Translations under genes and position numbers: made by a program
Part shown: positions 11,772 through 45,930 of the stretch, piece after piece
Position numbering within the stretch: the first letter of the stretch is position 1
Layout: the number at the start of each line of letters is the position of its first letter
Assembly: GCA_964019135.1 (NCBI GenBank)
Contig: OZ025263.1
Span: 18,763,123-18,827,122, forward strand
Length of the DNA: 64,000 nucleotides
Origin: Arenicola marina
Taxonomy: Eukaryota > Annelida > Polychaeta > Arenicolidae
Direction: 5' to 3'
Notes under the pieces: model-generated
What the model saw: the letters and a program-made list of their open reading frames with translations, nothing else
What the model was told of the DNA's origin: nothing
Databases searched by the model: none

Positions 11772-11942
11772 ATGGCAGCCGTGAGACTGCTGCCGCTCAT
11801 CCTGGCTGGATTGGGCCTTCTGTTGTCACCAGGGAGAGCCACATACATGCCACAGGATGGCCAGGAAAGTCCGAATCAAATTCTGGTTCTCGAAGACCCG
11901 ACAGCCGCACGGATTCTGGAGTCGCGCTTGCTACAGTTGAAG
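11772..11942 (+). CDS. Tk: Tachykinin precursor, exon 1 (signal peptide)
   Basis: First coding exon, 57 codons. The start is the ATG at 11772 (MAAVRLLPLI); the open frame extends upstream only through a TTG, which is not a usual animal start. Residues 1-23 form a typical secretory signal peptide: R5, a leucine-rich core (LLPLILAGLGLLL) and small residues SPGRA before TYMP, so cleavage is probably near residue 23. This sends the precursor into the regulated secretory pathway. The exon continues through an acidic spacer and ends with ...RLLQLK at an AAG|GTAGGA donor, phase 0, matching the phase-0 acceptor at 37478. It contains no peptide copy of its own. Identification rests on the partner exon, and the join across 25.5 kb is inferred from matching phase, strand and signal-peptide plus propeptide logic, not from a transcript. 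Confidence 0.7.
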
Positions 11943-12898
11943 GTAGGATTGCGTCGTGGCTGTTCTTGGCCGGCCCCCGCGTGAGATTGCGAGTACACCG
12001 CCTGTGCTGACAGAGCATTTAGCGGCTGCACATATAAATATACAACCCATGTCCGTTAGCTTTATTAAATTAATTGTGCAGGGACCCTGTGTACAATCTG
12101 CTTTTGGTTACCCACCTCCAAGTGCTTTATATAATGTTTTGTTGCGAAGTCCCGGTTGATTATACACCAACAGAATCAACCGTGCCGCTTTATTTTTTGG
12201 AATAGTTTGCGTCGCCTTTGGTCCAAATTAGAGTACCTACTTGGGCCCCGTTGGGTATCACATGACGCATTGCATCGAATGGAAAATAAGAAAACGTCAT
12301 GCGAGAATGGCGAGGCTTTACTCAAAAAAGGGCGATAAAATGTATAAAAGTAACCCAAAGTGGGGGAGGGGGGTAATTGGCACAAGGAGAATATATGCTT
12401 CTGTAATGCCATGTAATAAAATTGATCAGAATTCTCTAGTCATAGTGCTTTGCTCATATCCCAAAAAGCGCAATGGTCCAAAATCTATAATGTTGGGAGG
12501 GGGACAGTGCGTTAATAAGTTAATAATAATAAAATGCTAAACGTCTTCATTTTGCATTTTGCGAGTGTATAAATATATGTAATAATTCAACCTAATTCAT
12601 TTTTTAAGGATCATTAGACCTGACAATGGGAATGTTAATATGTCTCCAACATTTGTCGAATCCGAAGGTCAATAACGTTAATTCATTATTGCACAGACGC
12701 CAGCGGCAAAAAGAGTAATAAGAGAGCCATTTTGCATATACCAGGTCAAAAGACCCTTCAATAAATAACGCACCATGCGCATATCAACTTTTGCGTTCTG
12801 GAACATATGGCGACCAGAACCAAATGTTGTGAGGTAAGAGGGCATTATCTCAAAACTTCAACTCAGAAGTCGGGCTCATAGATGACTGCGATCATCTC

Positions 12899-13067
12899 TA
12901 GTGGCGGGCGGATGCAGGATTTTGTCAAAGGGGTTGCACGCCTCATTATAGCGTCTAAAAGCTGCAGACAATGGACAAAATTGTCCGTTATTACGCCGTG
13001 AGAGAGAGGGCAAGTGCCACCTATGCCCCCCCGCCCCACCCCTCCCTGGATCCGCCGCTGGGCTCTT
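12899..13067. mobile_element. Short non-autonomous hAT-like element (MITE), degenerate
   Basis: The left end reads AGTGGCGGGCGGATGCAGGA and the right end, reverse-complemented, reads CAGCGGCGGATCCAGGGAGG. These are imperfect inverted termini of the CAGnGGCGGATCCAGG kind often seen on hAT-type miniature elements. The interior is about 125 bp and non-coding. A clear 8-bp target duplication is not visible (flanks GATCATCT and GGCTCTTT differ), so family and exact ends are tentative. Confidence 0.4.
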
Positions 13068-15129
13068 TCATATATGTATATAGTCTATCGCAAGTTGCTT
13101 GATTTTCGAAGCAGTGCAATGCCATCTACGTAATTCGAGTCAGACGTGATGTTCGTTGTCGATGCTTAAACGCCGTTGCATTTTTACGGTACAAATGCAT
13201 CTGGTGGTGTATTTGAAGGCTGTCTGTATCCTGCGGGTACTGGCGTCCTGCCAGGTAAGCTTTTCACACCAACACCAGATCTTTAAGTATCTTACAGGCA
13301 TAAAGGTCCAGCCCTGATATTAATTTCCGCCGTCGCTCGGGCCAAGCAGGTGGGAGGCGGTCGGAAGCTATCACCCTTGATTCATCATTGGCAACTTCAG
13401 AAGGAGTTTGGTATTTAGTGAATCTGGCCTCGCATTGAAGCCATGGATGAGAGGAGGTTGGACCTGATGCCATTGCGGCCAGGCTAACCTAACCTTATTC
13501 TGTCTCATCCTTTGGCCCCGGTGCCTCGCTTCCAGTTCCGGCGGCCCGATGGTATGTCTTCTTCGTTCGTCTTGCGGTGAAGTGACTTCCATTGACGGAC
13601 TGTATGAGAAAGCTGCAGCGCATTAATAGCACAATGATGACCTCCCCCCACCCCGCCCCACCCACTCAACCCTCCTCCTCACTGCGCGCCCCCATGTCAC
13701 CTTTAAAGGTGTCGGCCCCCGTGAGGAGAAGTGAAGTGGGGACTCCCTTCTTCTGGCAAGTCAATGGTACCAACATATTTAGCCGCACAATCCGACAGAA
13801 AAAAATAAGGTCCTTCTCCTTGTGGGATGAGAGGCTGCCATTTCCTTGTTACTCACGTGATCACAGCACTTTGGTTGCGATAAACACGGCCGCCCGCTAT
13901 CCCTGACGAGCGTTGACTAGCACGACTAACCTCACAAAATTGCCCTCACTTCTCAGTAAAAGAAATTGGCCAAAATAACAGTATATGTTCTCCTAAATTG
14001 ATTGATGAGTCTAATGTATTGGCATTTTATTTTTTAAATGTGCCTTGCTGATTATGCACTTTATGTTAGACTGAGTTTAGTCATCAACCGGCTAATTTCT
14101 CAAAACTGAGGTGATTCGCTTCCTTCGTTCCACGCCAAATGTGGACGGTGAGCTTGATTTTACAACAGGTTGGTTGACATCGGTCCGTCTGCGAAAGACG
14201 ATGGATTTGCGGCTTGGTTTTGGTGAAAGCAATAAAGCAATGCGCCAGGGGGGACTTGAAGCAAACTGATATTGGCCTTGGCGCATAATTGACTCCTGTA
14301 ACTTGTTTTCTGTGATTAGTTCTGAATCACGCCTGAGACGTATGGTCGGACCGGAAGTGAAACGAGCTGCGGGGCATAGTCGGCAGCAGCGCCGCCTAGC
14401 GTTTGGGAGTGAAACAAGCTCCGCCTTTGCCGTGTTCTGCTTCTGAAAGACTAATGGTTATGTCGTGCTTGACCCTGAACCCTCGATGGTCTTCATGTTA
14501 TATGTTTATATCAATAGCCAGGTTTCCCGCAGAAACCAAATTTATGGGCCAACGAATGCACTGAAGCAAAAGAAACGTCATGGACGCGAGTTAATAAACC
14601 AAACGAAGAATAGTTACCCAAGAATGAAAGCAACAAATGGGCTGGGAAGCGATATTCACGCTAAACATTACTGGGACATTGGGGGGTGACAAGTGCAACG
14701 TCCTGCCAGTTGCCCCGAAGTTGGATGGCGATACGTTGCGTGATTCACACACGACAATGTCATCATTAACACCATGTTATATATAGTCACTGATATAATA
14801 TGATGCCTAGACACGGAACCAGAAAATGTAGACAGATATGCTTGATAGCCGGGGAGGGGGTCGATTTTCACGTGTTAAATGGTATACATTTGTGGCAATA
14901 AAAGGAGGGGGGCCGAGGCCGCCCCCCCCCCCTCCCCCCTGTATCCGCCCCTGGCCTATGTTTAATGTGCTAACGCACAAACAGGATATCTTTATAGACA
15001 GCTGAAGCCTAGCGCAGGCCGAATGATAAAAGATGATGACGTCGCCGTGACGTCACATTGAAGCGGATGGGATTGTTGGAGCTTGATATATGTGATGATG
15101 GTGGTAAGGTCAGTAATGGTCATGAGGGT

Positions 15130-15455
15130 GGGGAAGAGGGTAGTGATTTGCAGTGGTGATGGGGTGGTGATGGTGGGGTGTGGATGGGGATAGTGATGGT
15201 GATGATGATGGCGATGGTGATGGTGATGGTGATGGTGATGGCGATGGTAATGGCGGTGGTGATGGTGATGGTGATGGTGGTGGTGATGGTGATGGTGATG
15301 GTGAGGGCGATGGCGATGGCGATGGTGATGGTGATGGCGGTGGTGATGGCGGTGGTGATGGTGATGGTAATGGTGGGATGTGGATGATAATGAGGATGGT
15401 GATGGTGATGGTGATGGTGGTGGTTACGGTGATGGTGATACTCTTGGATGGCCAC
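15130..15455. repeat. GATGGT/GGTGAT hexamer microsatellite
   Basis: About 320 bp of GATGGT and GGTGAT permutations with GGC variants. It gives open frames on both strands (Met-Val, Gly-Asp, His-Pro runs), which are composition artefacts. Confidence 0.95.
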
Positions 15456-15512
15456 CTCGATAGTATGAACCCGGTCTGGTGAGTCATTCCTTACACTAAA
15501 GACCCGAGAGAT

Positions 15513-15661
15513 AGTAAGGCATGGAGGTGCTAAGGCATGGAGGTGGTAAGGCATGGACCATCTCCATGCCTTACTACCTCCATGCCTTACCACCCACTCC
15601 ATGCCTTACCAACTCCATGCCTTACAGATGGTAAGGCGTGGAGGTGGTAAGGCATGGAGGC
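15513..15661. repeat. 16-bp repeats in alternating orientation
   Basis: Unit TAAGGCATGGAGGTGG. Three copies on + (15513-15558) are followed by four in the reverse orientation (CCATGCCTTACnACC, about 15560-15625) and then two on + again (to 15661). The adjacent opposite blocks are perfectly complementary over most of a unit, so the segment can form alternative hairpins. Confidence 0.9.
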
Positions 15662-17059
15662 ATATATATGTTACGGAATTTAGACTGTAACATGTAACAT
15701 ATATATATACTGAATTGTAATATAATCTTATATGATTCAACGACATTATTCCTTGTTATCAGCTTGCCACATCTGTCATTGTACCTGATATATGTCGTGT
15801 CTCCCGAAACTAATGAATGTGACAAAGGCGTATATGGAAATGACTTTGTCACACAGCTTTGAGGCAAATTGAATACTGGACGAGTATTAGTAATAATAAT
15901 AATAATTTATCATTACATTCGCATCACGCATGTTGATTTGTAGCACAGGATTTAAACCTGTGCGACGTATCCTAAAAAATCTAAAGCATGTCACAATAAC
16001 TCCCATACAAACTGCGACATTGAAAAAACCTTGGATATAATCGTTTTTTGTGCCATACACGACAAAGTTACTTGAACCACGTGTGCAAAAACAGCCGGCA
16101 TCAGGTTTCCCAGCTGCTAGGATGGGTCATCGTCACGAAGTGGCTATTCTATATCACATCTAGCATTGTCATCTGTGTATATCTAGCAGTGGCTGAGTGA
16201 CATCAGTGGTAGGTACACCAGTGGTTTGTAGGTACATGCCATCCGACAATGTCTGAGGACTGCTATAATGAGAAGTTTAGCCTTGCAAGGCAGACCGGCG
16301 GTCCTCCGCCCCCTCCGCCCCCGCCCCCATCTTCCCCCTTCCCGCCTCTCCTCTGGCCTCCAAACTCCATCCATACTGAAGCAGTAACCTGTATCATCAC
16401 TTCACATGAATATCCCCTGATATGCCTTTTACTTGGCCAAGAAATAATCACCAGAGAACACATGTCTTTCAATTTCTTCCGTTTCGTGTCCATTTCACCT
16501 TTCTTCTGGTTTTAAATACCTTTTATGCTTCCGTCGTCCCGGCTGAATACATGGTCGGGTGGGCCCCTGTGCCCTCAGCAAGTGATACTTTATTCATTGA
16601 CCTTTCCCCATTTCTGCCTTGACCATCCCTTTACATAAAAATATTTATAATAGGGACATAATAGTTTGCTTTTCCCCCCATACCAGACCGGCTGTTAGTT
16701 CGGTCGAACCTTAATCGACTGTTCTGCCACAGTGGCTAGGTGGCCTTGACTGGCAGTGACAGACAGGAAAGAAACAGACATGTCTCGTCTGTCGTCAATG
16801 GTTGTTAGCCGGTCGCGTGGCCACTGTTGCTATGCAGCTAGTCTCTGCGTTGTATTGTATTGTAGTCCCAGGGATGGATTACAGAACCGCACGGAGGGTG
16901 TCGTCTCAGGCAATTTATTAATTGCGAGGGTGGGGGTGGGGGCGTTCAAACATGGAGTTTATCAAGGACGAACGGTTCAATTACGCATTCATTAATATCA
17001 GGCTGTTAAAACAAGCATTTCAATAATAATGAGCGGTTAAATAATATTGTTCCTTAAAG

Positions 17060-17465
17060 TTAATGACGAGAAGGACAATCATGTAGTGCTTTAATGATGG
17101 GAGGTCAATCATGTAGTTCCTTAATAACGGGAGGTCAATCATGTAGTTCCTTAATAACGGGAGGTCAATCATGTAGTTCCTTAATGGCGAGAGGTTCAAT
17201 CATGTAGTTCCTTAATGACGGGAGGTTCAATCATGTAGCTCCTTAATGACGGGAGGTCAATCATGTAGTTCCTTAATGACGGGAGGTCAATCATGTAGTT
17301 CCGTAATGGCGAGAGGTTCAATCATGTAGTTCCTTAATGACGGGAGGTTCAATCATGTAGTTCCTTAATGACGGGAGGTCAATCATGTAGTTCCTTAATG
17401 ACGGGAGGTTCAAGCATGTAGTTCCTTAATGACGAGAGGTTCAATCATGTAGTTCCTTAATAGTG
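17060..17465. repeat. 30-31-bp minisatellite, about 13 units
   Basis: Unit core CAATCATGTAGTTCCTTAAT followed by GACGGGAGGT. Length varies by one base (AGGTCAAT versus AGGTTCAAT). Variants ATAACGG, ATGACGG and ATGGCGA occur in runs. The outermost units are more diverged. No coding role is apparent. Confidence 0.92.
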
Positions 17466-17719
17466 GAAGGTCCATTGCTGGCCATGGCATGGTCACCACG
17501 AGGCTGTGTGGTGACCAGAAGGACACGAGAGTGTTGCGGTCACGCAGCTGATGTGATCCGTCATAGCAAAATTATAGCTCTATGACAAAGTTGGCGTGAA
17601 AAAGGTTCCTCCGTCCTATAGGTGAATTCCACCCCTTTAAACTGAAGCTTTCGCTTTGAAGAGGTATATTCGGTTTTGTACATCACCCTTGACTTGAATT
17701 TCTACACGACTGCGGCTTC

Positions 17720-18660
17720 CGAGTGTCGACAAGGAAGCTAATGGATCGAGGCCCCGGCCCCCTCCGATCCCCCTCCACTCTTAGCCCCCTCCCCCGACAC
17801 CCCCCCCCCCCCACCCCACCTTCCATCCTAGTACCCTGGTCGTTATAAACACAGGTGTGACTTGACCCCTCCTTACTCGCGACTCGAGCTTCGCCTTCAA
17901 CCTGCCTCATACAATATCCTTGCTCGCTTGCTACATCAAAACCAACAGCGACAAGGAATCCTCCCCTCCAGCCCACTCGCCATCCGCTCACCCTAACTGC
18001 CCCCACAGCCCCCCCCCCCCCTCCCTGTCCCCCCGTCAGGGTCGCTATAGAACCTGTTCCCCGTCAGCACTCTCCACCCCACCCACCCCCCCCCCTCCTG
18101 CCTGCATCATTGTCCGTATGTCACGCCACCTAGCGGCAAAATCACTTCCTCTTCCGCGGGACCGACTTGTGACGCGTGCGTCCGGGGCGCAGTCTCCCAC
18201 CCCGCTGGACGATAGCGGCAGGTGGGGGAAGCCAGTAGGGGAGTGGGTGGGGGTGATAAGGAGAGATCGGGGTGAGGGTGGTGGCGGGGGAGGTGGGAGT
18301 GGGTGGGGTGAGGGGAGGTCGGGGTGGGGGTGGTGGCGGGGGAGGTAGGGATGTGTGGGGGTGATGGAAGGTTGTGGGTGGATTGAAGGTCGGGACGGGT
18401 GAGGGGAGGTCAGGGGGGGCAGGCGTGGGAGGGGTGGTGTATAGGGGTGCGAGGGCTAGGGGAGGTCAGTGGGGGTGTGAGGGTCATAAGGGAAGGTCGG
18501 TGGGGGTGCGAGGGTTAAGGGAGATCGGTGCGGGTGGCGGGTGTGGGGCGGGGGGAAAGGCGCGGGATGGGGCGGACTTGTGTGAGCGCTGGATAAGGAG
18601 TCTCCGTGGTGGAGGAGGAGGCGGAGGAGGAGGAGGAGGGTGGGGGGATTGAGAATGGAG
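17720..18660. repeat. C-rich then G-rich low-complexity pair
   Basis: From 17740 to about 18110 the + strand is C-rich (runs of up to 14 C, CCACCC). From about 18220 to 18660 it is G-rich (GGTGGGGGTG, GGAGGAGG). The two skewed halves are partly complementary in composition. Open frames over them are Pro- or Gly-rich artefacts. Confidence 0.7.
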
Positions 18661-19396
18661 CGAGTGAGTACAGACCTCGGGGAAGCAGCTGGATGGACAG
18701 AAAATAGTTGTCGCAGTTATTCTTCTGACAACAACTACCCTACCTCCGCCCCCCTCCACTCCCACCCCCACTCCCCAGCGCCCAGGCTAGCCATGCGGTC
18801 CAGCGACACCAGGTCGATTAGAAAGGGCCGAGGTTTAAGTTTTCAGCGGGTGTATTAAAGATGGCCCCCGAGCCCTTCTCTGAGGCATGTGACACGATTC
18901 CAAGTGATTTACCTGCAGCGGATACCCCACAAGACTCAGATCAAAGGGAAATCCCATGAGTCCATGTGGAAAACTGCCCTATATACACTCAACTGAGCAC
19001 AGTATATACCCATATAAGGTCTACCCCTGGGCATCCCCCACCCCCCGCCACCCCCCTACCCTCGTCATTACTATCGGTCCCTTGATGACGAGCCCCGTTT
19101 TCATTTGGTCACTCGATGAATAAAAAATTAAATATCAAATCTATATTTTCTCCGACCAATAGCCCCATCAAAGTAGGCCTCAAATCTGTGAAATGAATGT
19201 GCTTTCCGCCGTTATTAATTCTTGCTGGGCAGATATATATATATATTAATACATTGAGCGGCGGAAATCTGTTTCGCCATAGTTTTTTCCCACAAGGAAC
19301 GCAAGACATCAGCGGTTACATTAGCCTTTTAGTTTCTGGCTCCTTATTTAAATTGCACCATTATAACACGTCTCTTTCCCCGTAAATTAACATGTT

Positions 19397-19675
19397 AATC
19401 GGTGCCCCTAACATAACATGATAGTTGATTGGCTGGTTGCTATTATATTCGGAACGCTTTAACAAATTCTGGTCAAAACGCGTCAATGGAAGGAGGAAGG
19501 GAAGAGCGGAGCCATGTCCCCGGGGGTAGCCCCCTATTCTTTGCGAAGAAGGACATGGGATCTTTATCCTGCGACCACACAGCAGGGCGCAAACCACCGA
19601 TTCACGTCCCGTTAGGCTCTCATGTTGCCAGAGCGAGCGCTCTAACCCACATAGCTATCGAGGCTACACTTAATT
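19397..19675 (-). mobile_element. tRNA-derived SINE, longer copy
   Basis: Read on -, the element opens with a tRNA-like head: AGCCTCGATAGCTATGTGGG (A-box-like), then TTAGAGCGCTCGCTC, then a degenerate B box GGACGTGAATCGG (about 19597-19609 on +). The non-tRNA body shares about 150 bp at roughly 80% identity with 31258-31405 in the opposite orientation, including CCCATGTCC, TTCGCAAAGA, GACCAGAATT and TTAAAGCG. A tRNA head with a shared body is the standard design of a SINE. The 3' end near 19397 is placed where similarity stops. Confidence 0.65.
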
Positions 19676-22261
19676 ATGTGAACTCGGAGATTCGCAGAAA
19701 GTGGAGCTCGAGGGGAGCGTGTGTAACTGAGCGCCTAAAACGGTTACAACGTGTTGATTGACACGAAAGAACGCGTACCTATTTTTTAACGTGATTTTGT
19801 TAAGATTTTTTTTGTATAAACTTTATTTATTTTGCGATGTTTTCAACAGCGAATACACATGTTAATGATCACCTCTAATATTTCTATGTTAAGGTTCTAA
19901 CATGCAGAAATTATGCAACGAACATTTGTTACGACATGAGATCAGGAGGCAACAACATTTTGGCTCTCATATGATAAAAATATGCAAAGACAGTTTCTTA
20001 TGACATAACATAAATATTGCTTCTAATATAATGTAGGTATCTAAACAAACTATTTTGTTATGATAGCATATAAGGCAGCAACGTGGCTCTGATGCCATAT
20101 AAGTATGCAATGGAATATTGTCGTGATTTCAAATAAATTTGCAACAAAAAATTCCTCTGATAGGATAAACGACTTGTTGTCGTGATATGGCATACCGTAG
20201 TTCTTCCAATCAGCGCCCCTGTTTGAATAAGCTTCGGGGCTTGAATAAGCCAAATATGCAACAATGCGAGCCATATTTAATTGTCCAATGCAATTTTATT
20301 ATGATATATAAGTATGCAACGCATTTTGCGATAACTAGACATGAAACAGTCATGGATATGTCGTAATACACACAGGTGTGATTATGTCCTACTTACGACC
20401 ATGTTACGCGGGTGGGGGGGGGGGGGGGGCGATTAGGCTAACATGGACCATATATAGTACTGAGCTTAACCCAAAAGCGAACAACGGTGGCACTGTAATC
20501 GGTAATGGCTTCATGGATTCAGCAGCCACAGGGCACAATGAGCGACTTACAATAGGAGGGACGGCGTGTGTGTGGGAGGGTGGGGGGGGGGGGAGAGTGG
20601 GGTGGCGGAGGGGTAGAGATGCGTAAAGTCATTCTCCCATAGAGCTCGACACCTGAGCTAATCACCTGATCAGCCGTGGCGCTGTTTGTATTCTGAACAG
20701 GAGCCTCTATCACCGCTTCCCTCGCGGGAAACTTTGTTTAAGGGGAGGTCGATGGAGCCAGAACCAGTCCCTTGTGGCTTTGTATACCGCTCGTTAACCG
20801 TCTGCCGGAGAATGAACAAAACAAGCGATCGATCTTTGGCTGCCTTCCATCGTGGTGGTGGGGAAATTTCGGAGAGGTTGGGCGGACGGAGGAAGGGTTA
20901 TGATCTTCCGGTGTCCGTTCTAACCTTTCCTCACTGTGAGGTATAGGTACCTGGGGGTAGTTAAGTCTCCCTGGTATAGGGTGACACGTAGGCCTACACT
21001 TAGACCGCCCCCCTCCTCCCCCCCCCGCCACCCCTCAACCAAACAAAACTAGGTAGCCGGTGGCATGGTTGCATATACGCTGATGGCGTTTCGCGTTTCG
21101 CCTACACAGGCGAAGTTTCATAAGAATTTCTAGTGACTTTCATGAGACCTTTGACGTTTATGCTTGTGTAGATGGCTTTGGCTTCCTCCCAGGCATGGCG
21201 TGTGTGTCGATCTATAATAGCGGCGTGGGTAGCGGGTACCGTGTCGGTTTTTATCGATGATACGTGACTTTATTTAGTATGATGAAGGGTCCAGCCGAAA
21301 ATTTATACCGCTTTCAGCACAGGAGCTGGGGAGATGGTAGAGGCGGCCACGTGATAGCCCAGTGGTGGCGCCACCGGGCGGTGGGTGGTGGTATAAAAGG
21401 GAAAGAGATTCCGGATGTTCGGTATGTAACCTTGGAGTCCTCCCATCATCGCTGTCTGACCCTTCTGCTACCCCTGCTACCCTTACCGCAGCCGTCGCCC
21501 CCACCCCCCACAGACCTCCCCCGCAAACCCCAGTGGCTCCCCACCCCTCGCCCCTCCTAGTCGTCCCTCTGGAAACTCACCGAGCTTTTAAGCAGAGTCC
21601 CCCGAGTCCCATAGCCATCACTGGGGTCTTCGGTTAGCCACACTGCCTTCTCCCGTACCCCCACTCCCCCAACTCCCCAGCCTACCCCTGGGCACGAGGG
21701 ACCATCAGTCGCATAATTTCGAATGGGATGATCACCCTTACAACCGTCCCGGGGTGTTATGAAAATACACACCACCCTTCAGGTCCCATTTATCCCAGCC
21801 GCCTGCCTACCGCCCCTTACAGCGCCATCTGGCGCCGTCCGCCGGGACTTCAGGTGGTAGATGGAACCCATCGTCCCATACCGTGCGCACTCTCCAGTCA
21901 AACCAGATTACCGCTTGGGGGCGCTTCAAGCGCCGCACCGTGACGACTTCCGGTCGGCAGGGAGACATACGGGGATTAGGGCGGTAACACGCCGATGTAT
22001 CTCAGCTGTGAACGTCATTTCCGCTTTGGTACGACAGTTCACGGGGGCAAAACGTTACGGAGTGAACGACTGGCGAGTTTGATTGTCGTTTGCTTTTAGC
22101 CATAATGTGATGATATGTATATATACTTAAATAATGTATATAGGTGCCATTTCTTTGTGTCTGATGAGCATGATCGTTCTGATCTCGGCGTTAATACTGG
22201 GATTAATTATGTAACACGATTGAACATTAATATGTGAATTCGCTGTTGTGAACCTCGTAAA

Positions 22262-22300
22262 ATAAATAAAGTTTATATAAAAAAAAAAAAAAAAAAAAAA
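22262..22300 (+). other. Poly(A) tail with AATAAA, probable retroposed 3' end
   Basis: Two overlapping AATAAA signals (22262-22270) are followed 8 bp later by a run of 22 A (22279-22300). A signal followed so closely by a genomic A-tract is typical of a reverse-transcribed insertion (SINE, LINE tail or processed copy) on +. The body upstream (about 22000-22260) matches nothing I recognise, so family and start are unknown. Confidence 0.45.
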
Positions 22301-23462: not shown

Positions 23463-26400
23463 CAGGCTCTCCAAACCTCCTACCGCCGCGCTTCCCATGC
23501 CTTTATATACCCTCCCCCCTTTCCCATCCTCTGCCTGCCACAGGCTCTCCAAACCTCCTACCGCCGCGCTTCCCATGCCCTTATATACCCTCCCCCCTTT
23601 CCCATCCCCTGCCTGCCACAGGCTCTCCAAACCTCCTACCGCCGCGCTTCCCATGCCCTTATATACCCTCCCCCCTTTCCCATCCCCTGCCTGCCACAGG
23701 CTCTCCAAACCTCCTACCGCCGCGCTTCCCATGCCTTTATATACCCTCACCCCTTTCCCATCCTCTGCCTGCCGCAGGCTCTCCAAACCTCCTACCGCCG
23801 CGCTTCCCATGCCCTTATATACCCTCCCCCCTTTCCCATCCCCTGCCTGCCACAGGCTCTCCAAACCTCCTACCGCCGCGCTTCCCATGCCTTTATATAC
23901 CCTCCCCCCTTTCCCATCCTCTGCCTGCCACAGGCTCTCCAAACCTCCTACCGCCGCGCTTCCCATGCCCTTATATACCCTCCCCCCTTTCCCATCCCCT
24001 GCCTGCCACAGGCTCTCCAAACCTCCTACCGCCGCGCTTCCCATGCCCTTATATACCCTCCCCCCTTTCCCATCCCCTACCTGCCACAGGCTCTCCAAAC
24101 CTCCTACCGCCGCGCTTCCCATGCCTTTATATACCCTCCCCCCTTTCCCATCCTCTGCCTGCCGCAGGCTCTCCAAACCTCCTACCGCCGCGCTTCCCAT
24201 GCCCTTATATACCCTCCCCCCTTTCCCATCCCCTGCCTGCCACAGGCTCTCCAAACCTTCTACCGCCGCGCTTCCCATGCCCTTATATACCCTCCCCCCT
24301 TTCCCATCCCTTGCCAGCCACAGGCTCTCCAAACCTCCTACCGCCGCGCTTCCCATGCCCTTATATACCCTCCCCCCTTTCCCATCCCCTGCCTGCCACA
24401 GGCTCTCCAAACCTCCTACCGCCGCGCTTCCCATGCCCTTATATACCCTCCCCCCTTTCCCATCCCCTGCCTGCCACAGGCTCTCCAAACCTCCTACCGC
24501 CGCGCTTCCCATGCCCTTATATACCCTCCCCCCTTTCCCATCCCCTGCCTGCCACAGGCTCTCCAAACCTCCTACCGCCGCGCTTCCCATGCCCTTATAT
24601 ACCCTCCCCCCTTTTCCATCCCCTGCCTGCCACAGGCTCTCCAAACCTCCTACCGCCGCGCTTCCCATGCCCTTATATACCCTCCCCCCTTTCCCATCCC
24701 CTGCCTGCCACAGGCTCTCCAAACCTCCTACCGCCGCGCTTCCCATGCCCTTATATGCCCTCCCCCCTTTCCCATCCCCTGCCTGCCACAGGCTCTCCAA
24801 ACCTCCTACCGCCGCGCTTCCCATGCCCTTATATACCCTCCCCCCTTTCCCATCCCCTGCCTGCCACAGGCTCTCCAAACCTCCTACCGCCGCGCTTCCC
24901 ATGCCCTTATATACCCTCCCCCCTTTCCCATCCCCTGCCTGCCACAGGCTCTCCAAACCTCCTACCGCCGCGCTTCCCATGCCCTTATATACCCTCCCCC
25001 CTTTCCCATCCCCTGCCTGCCACAGGCTCTCCAAACCTCCTACCGCCGCGCTTCCCATGCCCTTATATACCCTCCCCCCTTTCCCATCCCCTGCCTGCCA
25101 CAGGCTCTCCAAACCTCCTACCGCCGCGCTTCCCATGCCCTTATATACCCTCCCCCCTTTCCCATCCCCTGCCTGCCACAGGCTCTCCAAACCTCCTACC
25201 GCCGCGTTTCCCATGCCCTTATATGCCCTCCCCCCTTTCCCATCCCCTGCCTGCCACAGGCTCTCCAAACCTCCTACCGCCGCGCTTCCCATGCCTTTAT
25301 ATGCCCTCCCCCCTTTCCCATCCCCTGCCAGCCACAGGCTCTCCAAACCTCCTACCGCCGCGCTTCCCATGCCCTTATATGCCCTCCCCCCTTTCCCATC
25401 CCCTGCCAGCCACAGGCTCTCCAAACCTCCTACCGCCGCGCTTCCCATGCCCTTATATGCCCTCCCCCCTGTCCCATCCCCTGCCTGCCACAGGCTCTCC
25501 AAACCTCCTACCGCCGCGCTTCCCATGCCCTTATATGCCCTCCCCCCTTTCCCATCCCCTGCCAGCCACAGGCTCTCCAAACCTCCTACCGCCGCGCTTC
25601 CCATGCCCTTATATGCCCTCCCCCCTTTCCCATCCCCTGCCAGCCACAGGCTCTCCAAACCTCCTACCGCCGCGCTTCCCATGCCCTTATATACCCTCCC
25701 CCCTTTCCCATCCCCTGCCTGCCACAGGCTCTCCAAACCTCCTACCGCCGCGCTTCCCATGCCCTTATATACCCTCCCCCCTTTCCCATCCCCTGCCAGC
25801 CACAGGCTCTCCAAACCTCCTACCGCCGCGCTTCCCATGCCCTTATATACCCTCCCCCCTTTCCCATCCCCTGCCTGCCACAGGCTCTCCAAACCTCCTA
25901 CCGCCGCGCTTCCCATGCCCTTATATACCCTCCCCCCTTTCCCATCCCCTGCCTGCCACAGGCTCTCCAAACCTCCTACCGCCGCGCTTCCCATGCCCTT
26001 ATATACCCTCCCCCCTGTCCCATCCCTTGCCAGCCACAGGCTCTCCAAACCTGCTACCGCCGCGCTTCCCATGCCCTTATATGCCCTCCCCTCTTTCCCA
26101 TCCCTTGCCAGCCACAGGTTCTCCAAACCTCCTACCGCCGCGCTTCCCATGCCCTTATATACCCTCCCCCCTTTCCCATCCCTTGCCAGCCACAGGCTCT
26201 CCAAACCTGCTACCGCCGCGCTTCCCATGCCCTTATATACCCTCCCCCCTTTCCCATCCCCTGCCTGCCACAGGCTCTCCAAACCTCCTACCGCCGCGCT
26301 TCCCATGCCCTTATATACCCTCCCCCCTTTCCCATCCCTTGCCTGCCACAGGCTCTCCAAACCTCCTACCGCCGCGCTTTCCATGCTCTTATATACCCTC

Positions 26401-27128
26401 CCCCCTTTCCCATCCCCTGCCTGCCACAGGCTCTCCAAACCTCCTACCGCCGCGCTTCCCATGCCCTTATATACCCTCCCCCCTTTCCCATCCCCTGCCT
26501 GCCACAGGCTCTCCAAACCTCCTACCGCCGCGCTTCCCATGCCCTTATATACCCTCCCCCCTTTCCCATCCCCTGCCTGCCACAGGCTCTCCAAACCTCC
26601 TACCGCCGCGCTTCCCATGCCCTTATATACCCTCCCCCATTTCCCATCCCCTGCCTGCCACAGGCTCTCCAAACCTCCTACCGCTGCGCTTCCCATGCCC
26701 TTATATACCCTCCCCCCTTTCCCATCCCCTGCCTGCCACAGGCTCTCCAAACCTCCTACCGCCGCGCTTCCCATGCCCTTATATACCCTCCCCCCTTTCC
26801 CATCCCCTGCCTGCCACAGGCTCTCCAAACCTCCTACCGCCGCGCTTCCCATGCCCTTATATACCCTCCCCCCTTTCCCATCCCCTGCCTGCCACAGGCT
26901 CTCCAAACCTCCTACCGCCGCGCTTCCCATGCCCTTATATACCCTCCCCCCTTTCCCATCCCCTGCCTGCCACAGGCTCTCCAAACCTCCTACCGCCGCG
27001 CTTCCCATGCCCTTATATACCCTCCCCCATTTCCCATCCCCTGCCTGCCACAGGCTCTCCAAACCTCCTACCGCTGCGCTTCCCATGCCCTTATATACCC
27101 TCCCCCCTTTCCCATCCCCTGCACTTCC
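23463..27128. repeat. 78-bp minisatellite array, 47 units, no indels
   Basis: Unit starts were checked at 23463, 23541, 23619 and 27051, which give exactly 78 bp spacing and 47 units to the end. Each unit holds CAGGCTCTCCAAACCTCC, a GCCGCGCTTCCCATGCC part, a TTATATACCC AT patch and a long pyrimidine tract. Since 78 is a multiple of three and the unit lacks stops, it stays open in at least four frames on both strands for about 1200 codons. Such multi-frame openness argues against coding. Substitution variants (CCAGCCACA, TCCTCTG, TTTATATA, CCCCCATTTCCC) mark 5-unit blocks at both ends. Lies inside the inferred tachykinin intron 1. Confidence 0.97.
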
Positions 27129-32281: not shown

Positions 32282-32478
32282 CTATCTAGTCTTGAGGTGA
32301 GGAGGTGCGATGTGTGAACTATTACATCGGGATTCAGGTTGATGAGCCAGACAGCAGTGAACAGGAAAATAATAGCCAATAAGGAGACCAAGACGAGAAT
32401 TCACGCAGAACGGTAGAAAGGAAAATCCGGATATAATTGGAACAAAGATGTAGAGGAAAAGAGGAAGAACGCCAGAAG

Positions 32479-32516
<38 letters not shown>

Positions 32517-37477: not shown

Positions 37478-38015
37478 AGTCTTATCGACCGCGAACTGAG
37501 CAGCAAACGTGACGCCTTCGACGACACACTCGCGGAGGAATCCGATGCCGTCGACAGTGAAGCGGCCGCGCTACCCATGATGAACTCCTTACACCCGATG
37601 TTCGCCGACCGAGAAGAAATGAGTCCCTTAGATTTGTCGCTGACGCGCGGGAAAAAATCGTCGCTGGTTGGGAACTACCTGGGCTCCAAGGCCCGTCGGC
37701 TGGACATGGCTAACTTGTTTAACTCGAGAGGGCGTCGGATTCCCTCACACAATCATTTCTTCGGCGCCCGGGGCAAGCGGCAGCCGGTGGAGGGAGACTT
37801 TGTGCCGGCCCGCGGGGAGCGCGCCCCTCCCCCTCACATGGCCTTCGCGGGGGCGAGGGGCAAAAAGGAGGCCCCCACGGGGTTTTCCTTCGCCAGGGGT
37901 AAAAAGGAATCGTCGTCCAGGGTTGGCAACCCGGCGGAGGATCAGCGACAAAGTCTTCTGGACAACATGAAATATTATATGCAACTTCGCAGCAGTAGAG
38001 ATGTTCACTTCGCAG
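37478..38015 (+). CDS. Tk: Tachykinin precursor, exon 2 (all peptide copies)
   Basis: 179 codons plus one base (precursor residues 58-236). Dibasic sites and amide-donor glycines cut out a peptide series. In order the C-terminal cores are LSLTR-GKK (110-114), YLGSK-ARR (124-128), LFNSR-GRR (137-141), FFGAR-GKR (151-155), FVPAR-GER (165-169), FAGAR-GKK (180-184) and FSFAR-GKK (193-197). FFGARamide and FAGARamide match the protostome tachykinin consensus FxGxR-amide, ligand of a rhodopsin-like G-protein-coupled receptor. The others are divergent. An acidic spacer (DAFDDTLAEESDAVDSE) follows the first KR. The acceptor is a pyrimidine tract ending ATCTCACAG, phase 0. The donor is CAG|GTAAGA at 38016, phase 1. 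Without splicing the frame would run to a stop at about 38107. Family identity is strong; mature peptide ends are inferred from processing rules. Confidence 0.85.
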
Positions 38016-38107
38016 GTAAGACGGGGTACTTTTCAGGCACTCTTCACCCAGTGTATTTGTGGGCGCCGCCCGCGGCTTTGGGGTGCTGTCTGTCTGGCCT
38101 GCGATAG

Positions 38108-38470
38108 ACCGATCCCGGCTGTCAATCATTCACTGACGTCACTGTTGCTTTTATCTAATCATGTGGTGAAAAGAGTTTATCCTACACCACTCGCCAGCAC
38201 CTGGAGCAATGGACCAATCCAAACTCCGACACCAAGCCCCGCCCACGCTCGAGTCCTTTTTTCCTTAATTGTGAGTGTGAAATTGACAGCCATAGCTGAT
38301 GGTAGGAGCAAGTGACAAGTACCCATCTCTGAAACTGACAAGTAAGAGACATGCCGCTTTGTTTGTCCGACTTGTTTGTCCGACATAATGCGCGTGGAAG
38401 GCCTTATTTCACCACATGATTGGATAAAAGCAACAGTGACGTCAGTGAATGATTGACACTCTGGATCGGT
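38108..38470. mobile_element. Fold-back element with 64-bp inverted arms
   Basis: Arm 38108-38171 is the reverse complement of 38407-38470 apart from about five differences; shared parts include TGTCAATCATTCACTGACGT and AATCATGTGGTGAAA. The spacer is 235 bp and non-coding, with a small direct repeat of TTGTTTGTCCGAC. Long inverted arms without an ORF fit a MITE or fold-back element. Each arm contains the palindrome TGACGTCA. It starts only about 90 bp after the exon 2 donor. Confidence 0.7.
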
Positions 38471-38689
38471 ACGACCAGCCATAACCGAAGCACTGCTACA
38501 GTTAAACCCGTCCGCGTTGATCAGGAACCAACTGGGCAAGGTCCCTAACGAGCAAACCGAGTAACCACCAGTCATGACCCAATGGAGTTATAAATACATC
38601 CAAAAGATATCGGTATGCCATGTAATTGGTATTTACCCTTCACAGTGTGTGTAAAGACAGATAGTGACTACCGTGCGGCGAACAGCGCC

Positions 38690-38860
38690 TGCAATGACTG
38701 CAATATAGCCATAGAGAGGACGCAATGATTGTAATATAGCTACAGAAAGCCCTCAATCATTGTAATAGCTATAGGAAGCTCGCAATGACTACAACATAGC
38801 TACAGTAAGCCCCAAATTTTTGTAATATAGCTACAGAATCCGCATTGAATGCAATGTAGC
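38690..38860. repeat. Degenerate 35-40-bp tandem repeat
   Basis: About five diverged copies of a unit near GCAATGATTGTAATATAGCT followed by ACAGAAAGCC. Length and sequence drift suggest an old array. Confidence 0.6.
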
Positions 38861-40042
38861 AACACAATCACTGGGATGCTGCCCGGTAACAAGTTTGAAG
38901 CCACCAAATGATTTCCCTTCACGGAGTTTTAGAATTGTATTGTAGATGGATAAACTGAAATTATGACCCGTTGATGAGCATGCTGTATGCGCGCTAAGGG
39001 GTTACTATCTGTTATAATACTTTCATCGGGTCCCTCTCGTTCCCTCACATCGTGCCAGATGCAAAAACACCAAATACTGTATATTTCGACTCCTAATCCT
39101 GGCTCCAATATCCGGCTGACCAATGTAGGGTAAGCGCTCCGGGAGATAAAGTGCGAATGGGGGCTGAGGGAAGGGAGGGGGCGCGGAGGAGGCCGATTTA
39201 GTGGCCACCGCCATGAGGTAAGAAGATGGGGTAGGTGATGAGGGAGGGGGCAGGGATGGGGGGGGGGGGGGGCAGACGGAGTGGCCGCCGCGATGAGGTA
39301 AAGAGGATGGGGCAGGTGAAGAGAGGGTGGGAGCGGGGAGGGAGTGAGGAAGGGGCAGAGGGTGGGGGGGGGGGCGATAATAGGTAGGTGATGGCTGTCA
39401 AAACGTCGCCTCACGGGACGCCATATTGTTCTATGTATTGGCGGTCACACCCGATCCGGAAGTAGTTATTCAGATAATGCCCTGTTAGGGGAGAATGGAA
39501 GGTCGACCGGCGATACGCGGGTGGGAGGTGGAAGATATGGGCGCTGGGGGGGGGGGGGGCATAGTCTGCAACATATCACCTCCCACCCCCCCCCCCCCCA
39601 CAACGAAAGCTCAACACATGCATCAGCTGATCATAGTTGTCCTTCACATCCATCCATCCGCCTCCTCCCCCCAACCCCAATCCGCACTCGACGGTGTTGT
39701 TCGCGCCGCACCCCCCCCCCTTCCCACGTCCCACATCACCCCGCCCCCCCCCCCCCCATCCCCCATCCCGCGCCTAAACAACTGCCAACACGCTGTGGGG
39801 CGCATTCAGACCAAACGAAGCATTAGTTATTTACTGACCCCGCGAGAGGTCTGTCGTGCCCCATTAGCAGATCAGGACAGTTAGTGAGAGGATTCTGCTG
39901 ACCCCTCAAGCAGGCTGGAAAGGGGGGGGGGTCGGGGTGGGGGGGGGGGGGGTCGGGTGTGCTATTGGCCTTGGATTTCGCGATCTTCACGACGTACTAC
40001 GCTATGATTGTAATGTAACTAAATGCACACAAGTGCACACAA

Positions 40043-40060
40043 GTGTACATATATGTACAC
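40043..40060. repeat. Perfect 18-bp palindrome
   Basis: GTGTACATATATGTACAC equals its own reverse complement. It sits in a cluster of TGTACA and TGCACA hexamers (about 40021-40083). It could be a site for a dimeric factor or simply a simple-sequence by-product. Confidence 0.7.
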
Positions 40061-40342
40061 TAGTGTACATAAGTGTACACATTGTGTCACATCCAGTCAA
40101 CCACTGTTGGGACCACTGCTGTCTGTCTGCTGCCTGATCGCGCCGAATTGCATTCGCGGCATGGGGTTCATACATATGTAAGTCATAATATTCATAATGG
40201 CGGTCATAGCTTCGCCGCTTCAAGTAAAGTGGAAGACACTCTCGCTTAGTTAGTGACCTTTTACCGCCCCACATCCTGTTCACGTGCTAACACGTAGGCG
40301 CCGTGGCAAGCGATGCCCCTAAATATACAACTCTGGAACATG

Positions 40343-40895
40343 TGTATTCGCTGACACATTACTAGTATCGATGACACATTACTAGTATCGATGACAGATT
40401 ACTAGTATCGATGACACATTACTAGTATCGATGACAGATTATTAATATCGATGACACATTACTAGTATCGATGACAAATTATTAGTATCGATGACACATT
40501 ACTAGTATCGATGACAAATTATTAGTATCGATGACACATTACTAGTATCGATGACAAATTATTAATATCGATGACACATTACTGGTATCGATGACACATT
40601 ACTGGTATCGATGACACATTACTAGTATCGATGACACATTACTGGTGTCGATGACAAATTACTAGTATCGATGACACATTACTGGTATCGATGACACATT
40701 ACTGGTATCGATGACACATTACTAGTATCGATGACACATTACTGGTATCGATGACACATTACTGGTATCGATGACACATTACTAGTATCGATGACACATT
40801 ACTGGTATCGATGACACATTACTAATATGGATGACGCATTACTAGTATCGATGACACATTACTGGTATCGATCACACATTACTAGTACCGATGAC
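40343..40895. repeat. 20-bp minisatellite, about 27 units
   Basis: Unit TATCGATGACACATTACTAG, spacing exactly 20 bp. Variants ACAAATT, ACAGATT, ATTAAT/ATTAGT and ACTGG occur in runs, with ACAAATT-type units alternating in the left half and ACTGG units in the right half. No long frame is open because 20 is not a multiple of three. Confidence 0.96.
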
Positions 40896-40989
40896 ACTGG
40901 AAGTGAACATTATAAATTCCAGCTATAGTACAACTAGTATTATAGTGCCTGCAGTAATAGGACGCGCCAAGCGCCTGCTGCCCCGTCGC

Positions 40990-42150
40990 GATGGGGAATG
41001 TCCCATTCCTCCGCTGCTGCCCCCTCGCGGTGGAGAATGTCCCATGCCTCCGCTGCCGCCCCCTCGCGGTGGAGAATGCCCCATGCCTCCGCTGCTGCCC
41101 CCTCGCGGTGGAGAATGCCCCATGCCTCCGCTGCTGCCCCCTCGCGGTGGAGAATGCCCCATGCCCCCGCTGCCGCCCCCTCGTGGTGGAGAATGTCCCA
41201 TGCCTCCGCTGCCGCCCCCTCGCGGTGGAGAATGCCCCATGCCTCCGATGCCGCCCCCTCGCGGTGGAGAATGCCCCATGCCTCCGCTGCCGCTCTCTCG
41301 CGGTGGAGAATGTCCCATGTCTCCGCTGCCGCCCCCTCGCGGTGGAGAATGCCCAATGCCTCCGATGCCGCCCCCTCGCGGTGGAGAATGCCCCATGCCT
41401 CCGCTGCTGCCCCCTCGCGGTGGAGAATGCCCCATGCCTCCGCTGCTGCCCCCTCGCGGTGGGGAATGCCCCATGCCTCCGCTGCCGCCCCCTCGCGGTG
41501 GAGAATGTCCCATGCCTCCGCTGCCGCCCCCTCGCGGTGGAGAATGCCCCATGCCTCCGATGCCGCCCCCTCGCGGTGGAGAATGCCCCATGCCTCCGCT
41601 GCCGCTCTCTCGCGGTGGAGCATGTCCCATGTCTCCGCTGCCGCCCCCTCGCGGTGGTGAATGCCCCATGCCTCCGATGCCGCCCCCTCGCGGTGGAGAA
41701 TGCCCCATGCCTCCGCTGCTGCCCCCTCGCGGTGGAGAATGCCCCATGCCTCCGCTGCTGCCCCCTCGCGGTGACAAATGCCCCATGCCTCCGCTGCCGC
41801 CCCCTCGTGGTGGAGAATGTCCCATGCCTCCGCTGCCGCCCCCTCGCGGTGGAGAATGCCCCATGCCTCCGATGCCGCCCCCTCGCGGTGGAGAATGCCC
41901 CATGCCTCCGATGCCGCCCCCTCGCGGTGGAGAATGCCCCATGCCTCCGCTGCCGCTCTCTCGCGGTGGAGAATATCCCATGTCTCCGCTGCCGCCCTCT
42001 CGCGGTGGAGAATGCCCAATGCCTCCGATGCCGCCCCCTCGCGGTGGAGAATGCCCCATGCCTCCGCTGCCGCCCCCTCGTGGTGGAGAATGTCCCATGC
42101 CTCCGCTGCCGCCTCCTCGTGGTGGAGAATGTCCCATGCCTCCGCAGCCT
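40990..42150. repeat. 39-bp minisatellite, about 29 units, CTCF-like motif
   Basis: Unit: CCCCCTCGCGGTGGAGAATG followed by CCCCATGCCTCCGCTGCCG. It is open in five frames for 200-470 codons because 39 is a multiple of three, so coding is not supported. Each typical unit carries, on -, CCGCGAGGGGGCGG, a 12 of 14 match to the core CCASYAGRKGGCRS of CTCF. Variant order reveals an 8-unit (312-bp) higher-order repeat, marked by CTCTCTCG at 41293, 41605 and, with one extra unit, 41956. Two diverged units continue at about 42210-42290. Confidence 0.95.
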
Positions 42151-42937
42151 GGTTCCTCGGCCCCAACTTCGCTCGCTCAGTATGAGTATGAGCGGCGGTA
42201 CCAGCTTAATGCTTCCGCTGTTGCCCCCTCGCGGTGGAGAATGTCCCATGCCTCCCCTACTGCCCCCTGGCGGTGGAGAGTGTCCCATGTGTCCGCTGCT
42301 TGAGTCGTAGTGTTACACTGGCGCGCGGTCTAGGCTGGCTCCCCCGCACGGCTTACTGTTTGATACATTCCGCTGTCTTTGTGTTGGCGATGAGACCACC
42401 TGCACGTCTAATTAGGTGTCGGTGGCTGCACGCTCGCTTCCGTCCGTCCGGTGTGTGTACACCCGGGCCTTTCACTCGCCCCAAATCACGGCTTCGGCGC
42501 ATTGCAACCCAGCATTGATTCGGCGCGAAATTCCGTGGCGCCGCGAGCGTCGTCAGCACGTCACGTGGCTACTTTGACCTAGATCTCTACCACTGGAGCT
42601 GGCGATGAAGCGGTGACATATAAGCGTTTGGGAGATTTCCAATTATTTTCAAATTCAAATTGTTCTCAAATTGAAAAAGAACGTGTTTTTTTTCATTTTT
42701 TATTCATAGTTCACTATGATTAGTGTGGGGGATGATTTGGTTCTTTGAAGTGGTACATAGCTAGCCGTTTCACAGCTTAAGGATGCCAATCCAATTCATT
42801 CAGTAGCAACAACAAAACCCATTGAGTTCTGAATGGAGACTTTGGTGCCGTGATATTCTATGTGTCTATTGATGTTGTAGACAATGGGTTCAAGAAAAGA
42901 CAACCCCCAAACGGTTTCAGCGCAGTGCGAGGCAAAC

Positions 42938-42960
42938 GTGACGTCACTCAGTGACGTCAC
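42938..42960. promoter_or_regulatory. Paired CRE palindromes
   Basis: Two TGACGTCA octamers (42939-42946 and 42952-42959) are separated by five bases, and the whole 23 bp is itself a palindrome except at the centre. TGACGTCA is the classic CREB/ATF site. Function here is inference. Confidence 0.5.
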
Positions 42961-43612
42961 CACGCACAGCGGACAAGGAGTCTTATCATGTGGTATTTCT
43001 GTTCGGTACGTATAAAATTATTTCTACAACTACCGTTGACAGTTATATGTTCAAAATATTTCAGCCGTCCAACATCAGTTTTACATACATATATATACAT
43101 ATTCAGTTTTTTAATAACTAATACAAAATTATCATCATGTCTTACGATGATGAAAACTGATTCATTATAGTTCATTATACTGTAACGGTAAACCGTGATA
43201 CCGTACATTCAATGGAAACCCCGGTCTATAATAATGAGCGTATTTGTCTCCGAGATTGGACTGTCTTCCACGAAGTAACCCTGGATGCCAGATTCTATGT
43301 ATACTGAGCTGCAGGAAGCACCAGTCCGGTCACACAATGACAGGTTTTATATCGGACTTGACGAGATTAGCACCCATTGAAATCTCACGGTCACCAAGGT
43401 CACGCAGTACCGCAGCGATGCATACCTACGTGTAGGACCGCAGTGAATAGCTCCTTGATGGGCTGCTACAGCCTATAGCGTTATCGCTAAAGAGGTCAAG
43501 ATTGGTTTCGCGGAGGTCCACCAGCTTGAACCACGTGCTAACTGTCCTCATGTGGCAGGGCCGCCCTTTCCACGTTAGGGCGAACCATTGCTTCAGCATA
43601 GCTCAGGTATTA

Positions 43613-43698
43613 CTCAGGGGCGGATCCAGGAAATCTGGATAGGAATGGAAGGCAGGCCGGTGGTGGCAGCAGGTTCCTAAAAGCTGTTTTTCGCCTGT

Positions 43699-43732
<34 letters not shown>
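43613..43732. repeat. hAT-like terminus fragment followed by (TA)n
   Basis: CAGGGGCGGATCCAGGAAAT (from 43616) resembles one terminus of a hAT-type miniature element. No partner terminus is seen within a few hundred bases, so it may be a solo end. A pure TA run follows at 43702-43732. Confidence 0.35.
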
Positions 43733-43736
<4 letters not shown>

Positions 43737-44484
43737 TGATATATATACAGAGCCAGCACAAATCCTGACATGGGAAGCAGAGAGACAAATTTGTCCCCTA
43801 GATGCTGCAAGAAGGCCACATTGTCGCTTAATATGTTATCGGCGTTTTTTCTTGTGTCCAATAATCAGCTTTCACGAAGATCCAACGAATAATTTTTTAT
43901 TCAATAAAATCGTCAATACTAATTTTTGTCCTGACGAGACCCTATTGTGTCGCTGGATATATGATGTCAAAGTCCATGTTTTTCGGCCGTGTTACATGGC
44001 ATCGACAAGGGCACGTCCCCTGTGACAGTGATTCAATAACACACGCCCCATCCCCGCCGCAAGAGCAAATCGGCGCGCACCCCAATTGTCGAGATAAATG
44101 ATTGTCAACGAAAATCAGAACTGATGTGACGCATAAGGCCACAGGACAGAGAAGGTCGGTGCGAGGATGAGGGAGAAATATTGTCAAAGAGAACAGGCCA
44201 ACCCTGGTGGACCGGGAAAATAGAGGACAAGGGACTCACGAGAGAGGGAGAGAGCGAGAGGGGGAGGGGGAGAGATAAAGCGACAGATATCAGGATGAGA
44301 TAGGCAGGGCATGCGGACTCACAAGAACAAATTGAGGTGGCGTTATCAAAACATTCTAGAGAACACCATTTCGTTCACTAATCACATGGGCGCTTTTATT
44401 CAATTTGGCTTGGCCGTACGCTTTGGCCATCAGACCAAAGTTTGTTATGTTCTTAAACGATAAATCTTTATTTTGTCATTTCAG

Positions 44485-44510
44485 TCGAAAGCGGAAGTGA
44501 CGTGTGTTGA
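44485..44510 (+). CDS. Tk: Tachykinin precursor, candidate terminal exon 3
   Basis: A strong acceptor (TTATTTTGTCATTTCAG) ends at 44484. Joined to the single base left over from exon 2 it reads V-E-S-G-S-D-V-C and then TGA (44508-44510), giving a precursor of 244 residues. The coding tail after the last peptide has no known function. Support comes from the good acceptor, a compatible phase, and the unusually repeat-free AT-rich DNA downstream ending in AATAAA. Against it, an alternative frame from the same acceptor is open for 46 codons but does not match the exon 2 phase, and no homology can be checked here. Confidence 0.4.
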
Positions 44511-45930
44511 CGTGAAATCTGCGGGCGGAAATTCCTCAAGGGAAGAATGGATTTCTCATCATCACGGCCCGTACGACCCAAGCAACAACATTATTCACTT
44601 ACCAAATCCCTGGACTATCTCCTAGACCATCTGAGACACGGCTTAGTAACGTCAGCGACAACAGGGGTTCATGACACATTGAAAGCAATCACTTCAGTTT
44701 TGAATGGTTGGATTAAATGAAACACATTTCCAAAGATCGATTGGGGAGAGCAGATCACTACTGATAGATCAAATATCGCGATCTTGTCACAGTTTTGTCG
44801 CGGCGACAATGGGTGCAAACACCACACTGGTTGTGGGCGAAAATGGGGGATATAACCTGTATGAGCGATAAAGGGAGAACCTTGCGTGTTACATTTAAAG
44901 GGGAAAAGGCCTACAATGGCAGGTGCGTTTTATTGATTAATTGCTTGAACACAAAATTGGTTAAGGGAATAAACATCCTTTCCGTTATCGGGCTGCGGTG
45001 TTATTGTGAAGGTCATTGGTTCTTGGTCACATCTATATGTGATCGGTTGACCGTAGAGATATGGACATATTTCAGTTATATATCTAGTCTGTATATTTTG
45101 AGCAACATAGCAAAATATGGAAACATATACCAATATATTTATATAATGCAAGTTATATATTTATCATGTAAAATTCTATAGATATGGTTAACTTGTTTAC
45201 CAGTTTATAGCCTAGTAGGGCCTCAAGCTGCTGTTTCTTTCTATTTCTGCAACTGCCGCTGTGTCATTTGTTGTCATAACCTGTGTTATTTCGCGCATGA
45301 CACAAATAATAAGCGTCGAAAGCAAAAAGTCCGCCTCCTTTTATGTGTTCCCCAGGAGTGACTAGATGAGATATATGGCCAATGAAGACAACTCAATCGC
45401 TGATTAATGCAAGTCGAACACATTGTTTTTGCAGGCAGCATTGTATCTTATCAAAAATACGCATGGAAGTTTTCACTCTTTTAAGAATTTGGTTTAAGAT
45501 ACACTGTAACAAGTTAAGTAGAATATTTTGTGATACATTACGGTGACTGCATCGTGTAACCATTGTTAGCTTTCCGATTAAGCAATGCTGTCGACCTGAT
45601 CTAAAGAAGATCGTTATTTTCAATCCAAATTGTATCGAATTTTATGCTGAAATCTTTAGCCCAAAAGACGCATTACTGGATGTATGCGGAACATTTAGTC
45701 ATTATTTAGCTGTCCTTTTTTTATTCCATTCCTTATTTTTTTGCATATCAATAATTATTACAGTCCCTCATTTTACTTATGTTATTCGCTCTATGGATGT
45801 CACCGACTAATAAACTACGGTGTGACGATTTGTGAGTAAAGTCAAGATGAAGGCCAACTTGGTGACATGTTGGCCTTAACATGAACACTGTAACTTCCTT
45901 GGTACTACAATAAACGTTTTAAGTGAATCT
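44511..45930 (+). terminator. Candidate 3' UTR and poly(A) signal of tachykinin gene
   Basis: About 1.4 kb of AT-rich DNA free of satellites, with AATAAA at 45909-45914 and GT/T-rich sequence following. A 128-codon open frame (44795-45181) lies inside but has no motif, and its last third is simple AT-rich sequence. The extent depends on exon 3 being correct. Confidence 0.35.

Follow-up and report, generated by a model that had tools for sequence, protein, structure and literature searches.

The window, the whole 64,000-nt stretch of Arenicola marina DNA analysed here, carries on its forward strand a gene that is very probably an annelid tachykinin-type (TK) neuropeptide precursor gene; its single joints are less sure than its identity. 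The coding sequence is most likely divided among three or more exons, those at 11772-11942, 37478-38015 and 42881-42954 included. The features of the locus are listed below.

11772..11942, + strand: exon 1, coding part; putative signal peptide and propeptide start; 57 aa, phase 0 at its end, hydrophobic core
23463..27122, no strand: minisatellite in intron 1; 78-bp unit, about 47 copies, 97% matches
37478..38015, + strand: exon 2; acidic spacer and predicted peptides ...LSLTRa, LDMANLFNSRa, IPSHNHFFGARa, QPVEGDFVPARa, APPPHMAFAGARa and EAPTGFSFARa; acceptor rank 22 of 3392, donor rank 5 of 3961
40975..42149, no strand: minisatellite in intron 2; 39-bp unit, about 30 copies
42881..42954, + strand: probable exon 3, overlooked by the earlier sequence-only reading; ...DNGFKKR-QPPNGFSAVRG-KR-DVTQ-stop, stop codon 42952-42954
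43903..43908, + strand: AATAAA, candidate polyadenylation signal by sequence match only, if the exon at 42881 is terminal
44485..44510, + strand: exon 3 of the sequence-only reading; VESGSDVC-stop, acceptor rank 3 of 3392, no amidated peptide

Exons, splice sites and introns

The borders drawn for the tachykinin-type gene are exact to the base (11942|gtaggatt, tctcacag|37478, 38015|gtaaga and catttcag|44485). The sequence-only reading had claimed two exons matching in strand and phase, and both were recovered at 11772-11942 and 37478-38015. Splice sites were scored with approximate metazoan frequencies and ranked among the 3961 GTs and 3392 AGs of the window. We are very sure that exon 2 is real; it starts in phase 0 and ends in phase 1 at the donor gtaaga. 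The donor of exon 1 (gtagga) scored 8.25 bits and ranked 356 of 3961. The signal peptide claimed for exon 1 was scored by hydrophobicity and the -3/-1 rule, and its hydrophobic core is present. Joined to the exon at 44485, these two exons give 244 aa and 735 bp with the stop, in line with the coding length of about 730 bp given before, while the mended model (11772-11942, 37478-38015, 42881-42954) gives 260 aa. The frame of exon 2 stays open beyond its donor, the stop lying at 38105-38107; even a message that is not spliced would therefore encode the peptides of exon 2.

Exon 1 probably belongs to the gene. Its junction with exon 2, deduced from strand and phase only, is the weakest joint of the model. 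A rough signal-peptide and donor filter was passed by 39 of the 453 in-phase ATG frames at positions 1-37477, exon 1 included. Many of the 38 others are repeats. On hydrophobicity 19 frames outrank exon 1, all of them within a TGGTGA repeat, and the frame at 13162 has a stronger donor than that of exon 1.

The length of the gene had been explained by introns filled with satellites. Satellites do lengthen the introns, but 'filled' is too strong a word, because the share taken up by TRF arrays is 27.9% in intron 1 and 32.3% in intron 2 as first drawn. It is 42.0% in intron 2 as redrawn (38016-42880), 61.1% between 45930 and the end of the window, and 37.0% over the whole window. A 601-bp segment taken from the 78-bp minisatellite in intron 1 gave 11 genome matches, all at its own locus, with very common words skipped. 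This unit is a multiple of 3 and the array is open for more than 1200 codons in three + frames and one - frame; we take it to be noncoding. Intron 1 also holds a dispersed repeat fragment (12907-13060) with nine other genome places at 69-85% identity. Downstream of the gene lie a 7.8-kb array at 49397-57159 (21-bp unit, about 370 copies, several frames open on both strands) and a 75-bp/39-bp satellite at 57357-59187, whose family is spread across many contigs (at least 189 matches, own locus included, very common words skipped). By eye, a short array at 60310-60433 resembles the unit of the latter in inverse orientation. Nine further open frames in the window gave no Pfam match above the cut-off (one reached E 0.13, short of it), and no tRNA or Rfam match was found in the window.

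Amidation cassettes and the 3′ end

Exon 2 encodes, in a single frame, LSLTRGKK, LFNSRGRR, FFGARGKR, FVPARGER, FAGARGKK and FSFARGKK. A dibasic pair follows five of these six F/L-x-x-x-R-G sites and is absent after FVPAR, which is followed by GER. The strict motif F-x-x-x-R-G-[KR][KR] occurs three times in exon 2; when its residues were shuffled 200,000 times, one strict cassette arose in 355 shuffles, two in 1 and three in none. The wider motif [FYWL]xxxRG[KR][KR] was found six times in the six frames of the window, five times in exon 2 and once at 42916-42939 on the + strand. In 100 order-1 Markov windows of 64 kb, its six-frame mean was 1.22 per window, and never more than one fell within 100 codons of one frame, versus five in exon 2. 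The dibasic-flanked, glycine-amidated peptides described before are thus in excess far beyond chance in exon 2, and the description fails at FVPAR. Strict FxGxR is present in two of the seven amidated F/L-x-x-x-R sites of the precursor (FFGAR and FAGAR), or two of the five that start with F; the others are FVPAR, FSFAR, FSAVR, LFNSR and LSLTR. One predicted amidated peptide of the precursor is APPPHMAFAGAR-amide.

The acceptor of the exon at 42881 is ttgatgttgtag, with its AG at 42879-42880 (rank 224 of 3392). The exon takes one base, exactly as the phase-1 donor of exon 2 supplies, and therefore fits exon 2. On the + strand, a dibasic-flanked F...RG[KR][KR] cassette occurred once in 300 Markov windows of 64 kb, or 11 times if L was allowed. 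QPPNGFSAVRG was compared with 12 peptides, and the best was abalone Hdh-TK1-3, with 7 of 11 residues identical, amidation glycine included (8 of 20,000 shuffles as good). EAPTGFSFARG of the same gene and Aplysia TKRP-2 each shared 6 of 11 residues (11 and 73 of 20,000 shuffles as good). Aplysia TKRP-1 and Hdh-TK2-2 were weaker (194 and 229 of 20,000), and for the remaining seven, both Urechis peptides among them, at least 1040 of 20,000 shuffles were as good. Within 42901-43400 no donor scores more than 6 bits, so the exon looks terminal. It is highly probable that 42881-42954 is a real 3′ coding exon, encoding one further peptide.

The sequence-only reading had instead placed the 3′ exon at 44485. 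Its acceptor position, strand and phase were exact, but it is probably not the 3′ coding exon, the in-phase peptide exon at 42881 having been overlooked. That the gene is exactly as first drawn (exons at 11772, 37478 and 44485, 244 aa, 38016-44484 noncoding) is distinctly unlikely, and would leave the tachykinin identity unchanged. The 44484 acceptor is indeed in the top three of the 3392 AGs and AATAAA occurs downstream at 45809 and 45909, but such a gene leaves unexplained an in-phase, dibasic-flanked, amidated and tachykinin-like cassette at 42881-42954. The exon at 44485 may be a false or an alternative 3′ end, and both 3′ exons may be in use. We regard two alternative 3′ ends, with 38015 joined to 42881 adding QPPNGFSAVRamide and 38015 joined to 44485 omitting it, as unlikely; if true, they would place the choice of tachykinin peptides under splice control in a protostome.

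Family assignment and receptor candidates in the genome

The precursor is laid out as a signal peptide, an acidic spacer and amidated peptides that are mostly bounded by dibasic sites. As given in passages of a 2019 review, protostome tachykinins are FX1GX2Ramide peptides and natalisins FX1X2X3Ramide peptides (PMC6880623). FFGARG-KR and FAGARG-KK fit the former, and the claim that FFGAR and FAGAR are the protostome tachykinin signature held. Single mature or linker peptides were aligned locally with the 244-aa model, with 2000 shuffles each; the shared RG ending is part of the signal. Shuffles as good numbered 0 of 2000 for Urechis II and for Aplysia TKRP-2, 2 for abalone Hdh-TK2-1 and 33 for Aplysia TKRP-1. 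Matches were weak for Urechis TK I (58 of 2000), Hdh-TK1-2 (259) and substance P (38), and two Aplysia linker peptides were at chance level (997 and 1259 of 2000). Homology of the C-terminal linker to the Aplysia linkers, with SLL..KYY alike by eye, was rejected since the shuffles gave no signal. A Pfam search of the precursor gave no match.

The genome searched comprises 867 Mb in 762 contigs. Exon 2 was the only significant match to its own sequence among the best candidates scored. With the 244-aa model and E up to 10, 63 matches were obtained from 78 candidates scored, namely its own exons 1 and 2 and 61 others at E of 0.226 or above. A second tachykinin gene gave no significant match among these 78 candidates, a search that a divergent paralogue would escape. 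Three loci tried as second tachykinin genes (L042, L043 and L044) were rejected as open-framed minisatellites. The minisatellite frame of L044 (C6:7.97 Mb) reads as repeated SHSLRLIFPARGRR, a spurious imitation of a precursor of amidated peptides.

The giant extracellular haemoglobin linker domain PF16915 was found at four places on C14, all above the cut-off. One of these exons matched four sequences in the PDB, all linker chains (E 4.3e-06 to 0.00036). Giant-haemoglobin linkers are not known outside annelids, and these putative linker exons point to an annelid. A molluscan source, entertained at first since the motif is lophotrochozoan, was rejected on account of the linker exons. Molluscan haemocyanin (PF14830) gave no match in this genome, nor in any control genome.

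An NK1R fragment was used as the receptor query and gave 123 genome matches. Among them are two exons on one strand of C4, at 28.196 and 28.131 Mb. When these were joined as one query against the PDB, the top 11 sequences were NK1R, NK2R and NK3R at 177-147 bits, and NPY2R came next at 97 bits (among the best 60 of 757 sequences). The C4 exons at 28.13-28.20 Mb therefore probably encode a tachykinin-type receptor, NTL-type and TK-type not being separated by the PDB match. The two exons are 65 kb apart and would belong to one gene. C17:7355087, the best of the 123 matches, was rejected as the tachykinin receptor, NK1R tying there with the prolactin-releasing-peptide receptor at 190.6 bits in the PDB. 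Because of this tie, the C4 exons are the better candidate. Given the peptide cassettes and these exons, both the ligand and the receptor type would be present in the genome, and the precursor peptides and the C4 receptor presumably meet.

Other receptor-like sequences were seen. The C17 locus (L034, 7.35 Mb) is a 572-aa neuropeptide-receptor-like open frame, intronless over the matched part, and C4 has further receptor-like loci at 1.05 Mb and 30.94 Mb. At C4:28.13 Mb, a second open frame (L027:223-459, - strand) lies on the same strand near the TM6-7 exon of the candidate tachykinin-type receptor. The TM7 stretch YNPIVYCWM.. has at least two more copies there, which looks like a short tandem repeat derived from the coding exon.

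The tachykinin reading is supported by FFGAR, which is the C-terminus of urechistachykinin II, together with the receptor exons in the same genome. A natalisin-like precursor, or one of another FxxxRamide family, would account for FVPAR, FSFAR and FSAVR, which lack the tachykinin G and fit the loose FX1X2X3Ramide motif only, and both peptide kinds are drawn on the spider mite TK1 precursor in part of the 2019 review (PMC6880623). It is nevertheless very unlikely, since FFGAR and FAGAR match FX1GX2Ramide and are similar to tachykinins of annelids and molluscs, and since these two groups, in passages of the same review, are known with TK-type receptors only (PMC6880623), such receptor exons being found here. 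A chance or satellite artefact, an open-framed minisatellite mimicking a precursor, is hardly credible. Mimics do exist in this genome, as the C6 array translating to repeated LIFPARGRR (L044) illustrates, but exon 2 lies outside all tandem arrays reported, its cassettes differ from one another, its splice sites are strong and it has no second significant genome match.

Predicted processing and known tachykinin systems

With a tachykinin-type precursor, the mRNA would be translated into a 260-residue prepropeptide, which the signal peptide would direct into the secretory pathway. Convertases would cleave the precursor at KR, KK and RR and at one R-x-x-R site, and the glycines of the cassettes would be converted to C-terminal amides. 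Two peptides start with glutamine, which may cyclise to pyroglutamate. The predicted products are IPSHNHFFGARa, APPPHMAFAGARa, EAPTGFSFARa, QPPNGFSAVRa, QPVEGDFVPARa and LDMANLFNSRa; their target would be a tachykinin receptor whose gene lies elsewhere in the genome. We infer each of these steps, from splicing and expression of the gene to processing and amidation of the precursor and receptor activation by its peptides. An annelid tachykinin gene with both FxGxR and FxxxR peptides and a receptor candidate bears on the motif residues that an annelid receptor needs. For annotation, the locus gives two warnings: in this genome short peptide exons lie within minisatellite-rich introns and are easily overlooked, and some of its minisatellites imitate peptide precursors.

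Tachykinin precursors are already known in annelids and molluscs, as stated in parts of two papers (PMC6880623, PMC11365428), and Urechis is grouped with the annelids in a passage of the former (PMC6880623). The gene is thus a new annelid tachykinin precursor with a mixed peptide set, of a precursor type already known. Capitella likewise departs from the motif, according to a figure legend of the Aplysia paper (PMC11365428). Passages of PMC9521575, PMC8557429, PMC6425005, PMC3890597 and PMC12343078 were also consulted. A text search for FFGARamide with FAGARamide or tachykinin returned no paper, and one for five peptide cores returned nothing relevant and one unrelated paper; both searches exclude supplements and so weigh little.

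The Aplysia TKRP precursor, in the part of its description used here, contains FXGXRamide peptides, one of them with an N-terminal QP, as here; its linker peptides have no detectable counterpart in our precursor. In excerpts of its description, the Pacific abalone Hdh-TK1 precursor likewise combines a signal peptide with several amidated peptides released by dibasic cuts, and Hdh-TK1-3 (pQPHFGFHGVRa) is the peptide that QPPNGFSAVRG resembles most closely among those compared. The abalone precursors are shorter, 174 and 147 aa against 260 aa here, and in those excerpts their peptides retain the G of xGxR. The closest C-terminus is that of the echiuran Urechis unicinctus, whose urechistachykinins II (AAGMGFFGARa) and I (LRQSQFVGSRa) are given in part of PMC9782701; the FFGAR-amide ending is identical to that of the peptide here. 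Compared with Urechis by its mature peptides alone, the set here is mixed, with FVPAR, FSFAR and FSAVR alongside FFGAR and FAGAR.
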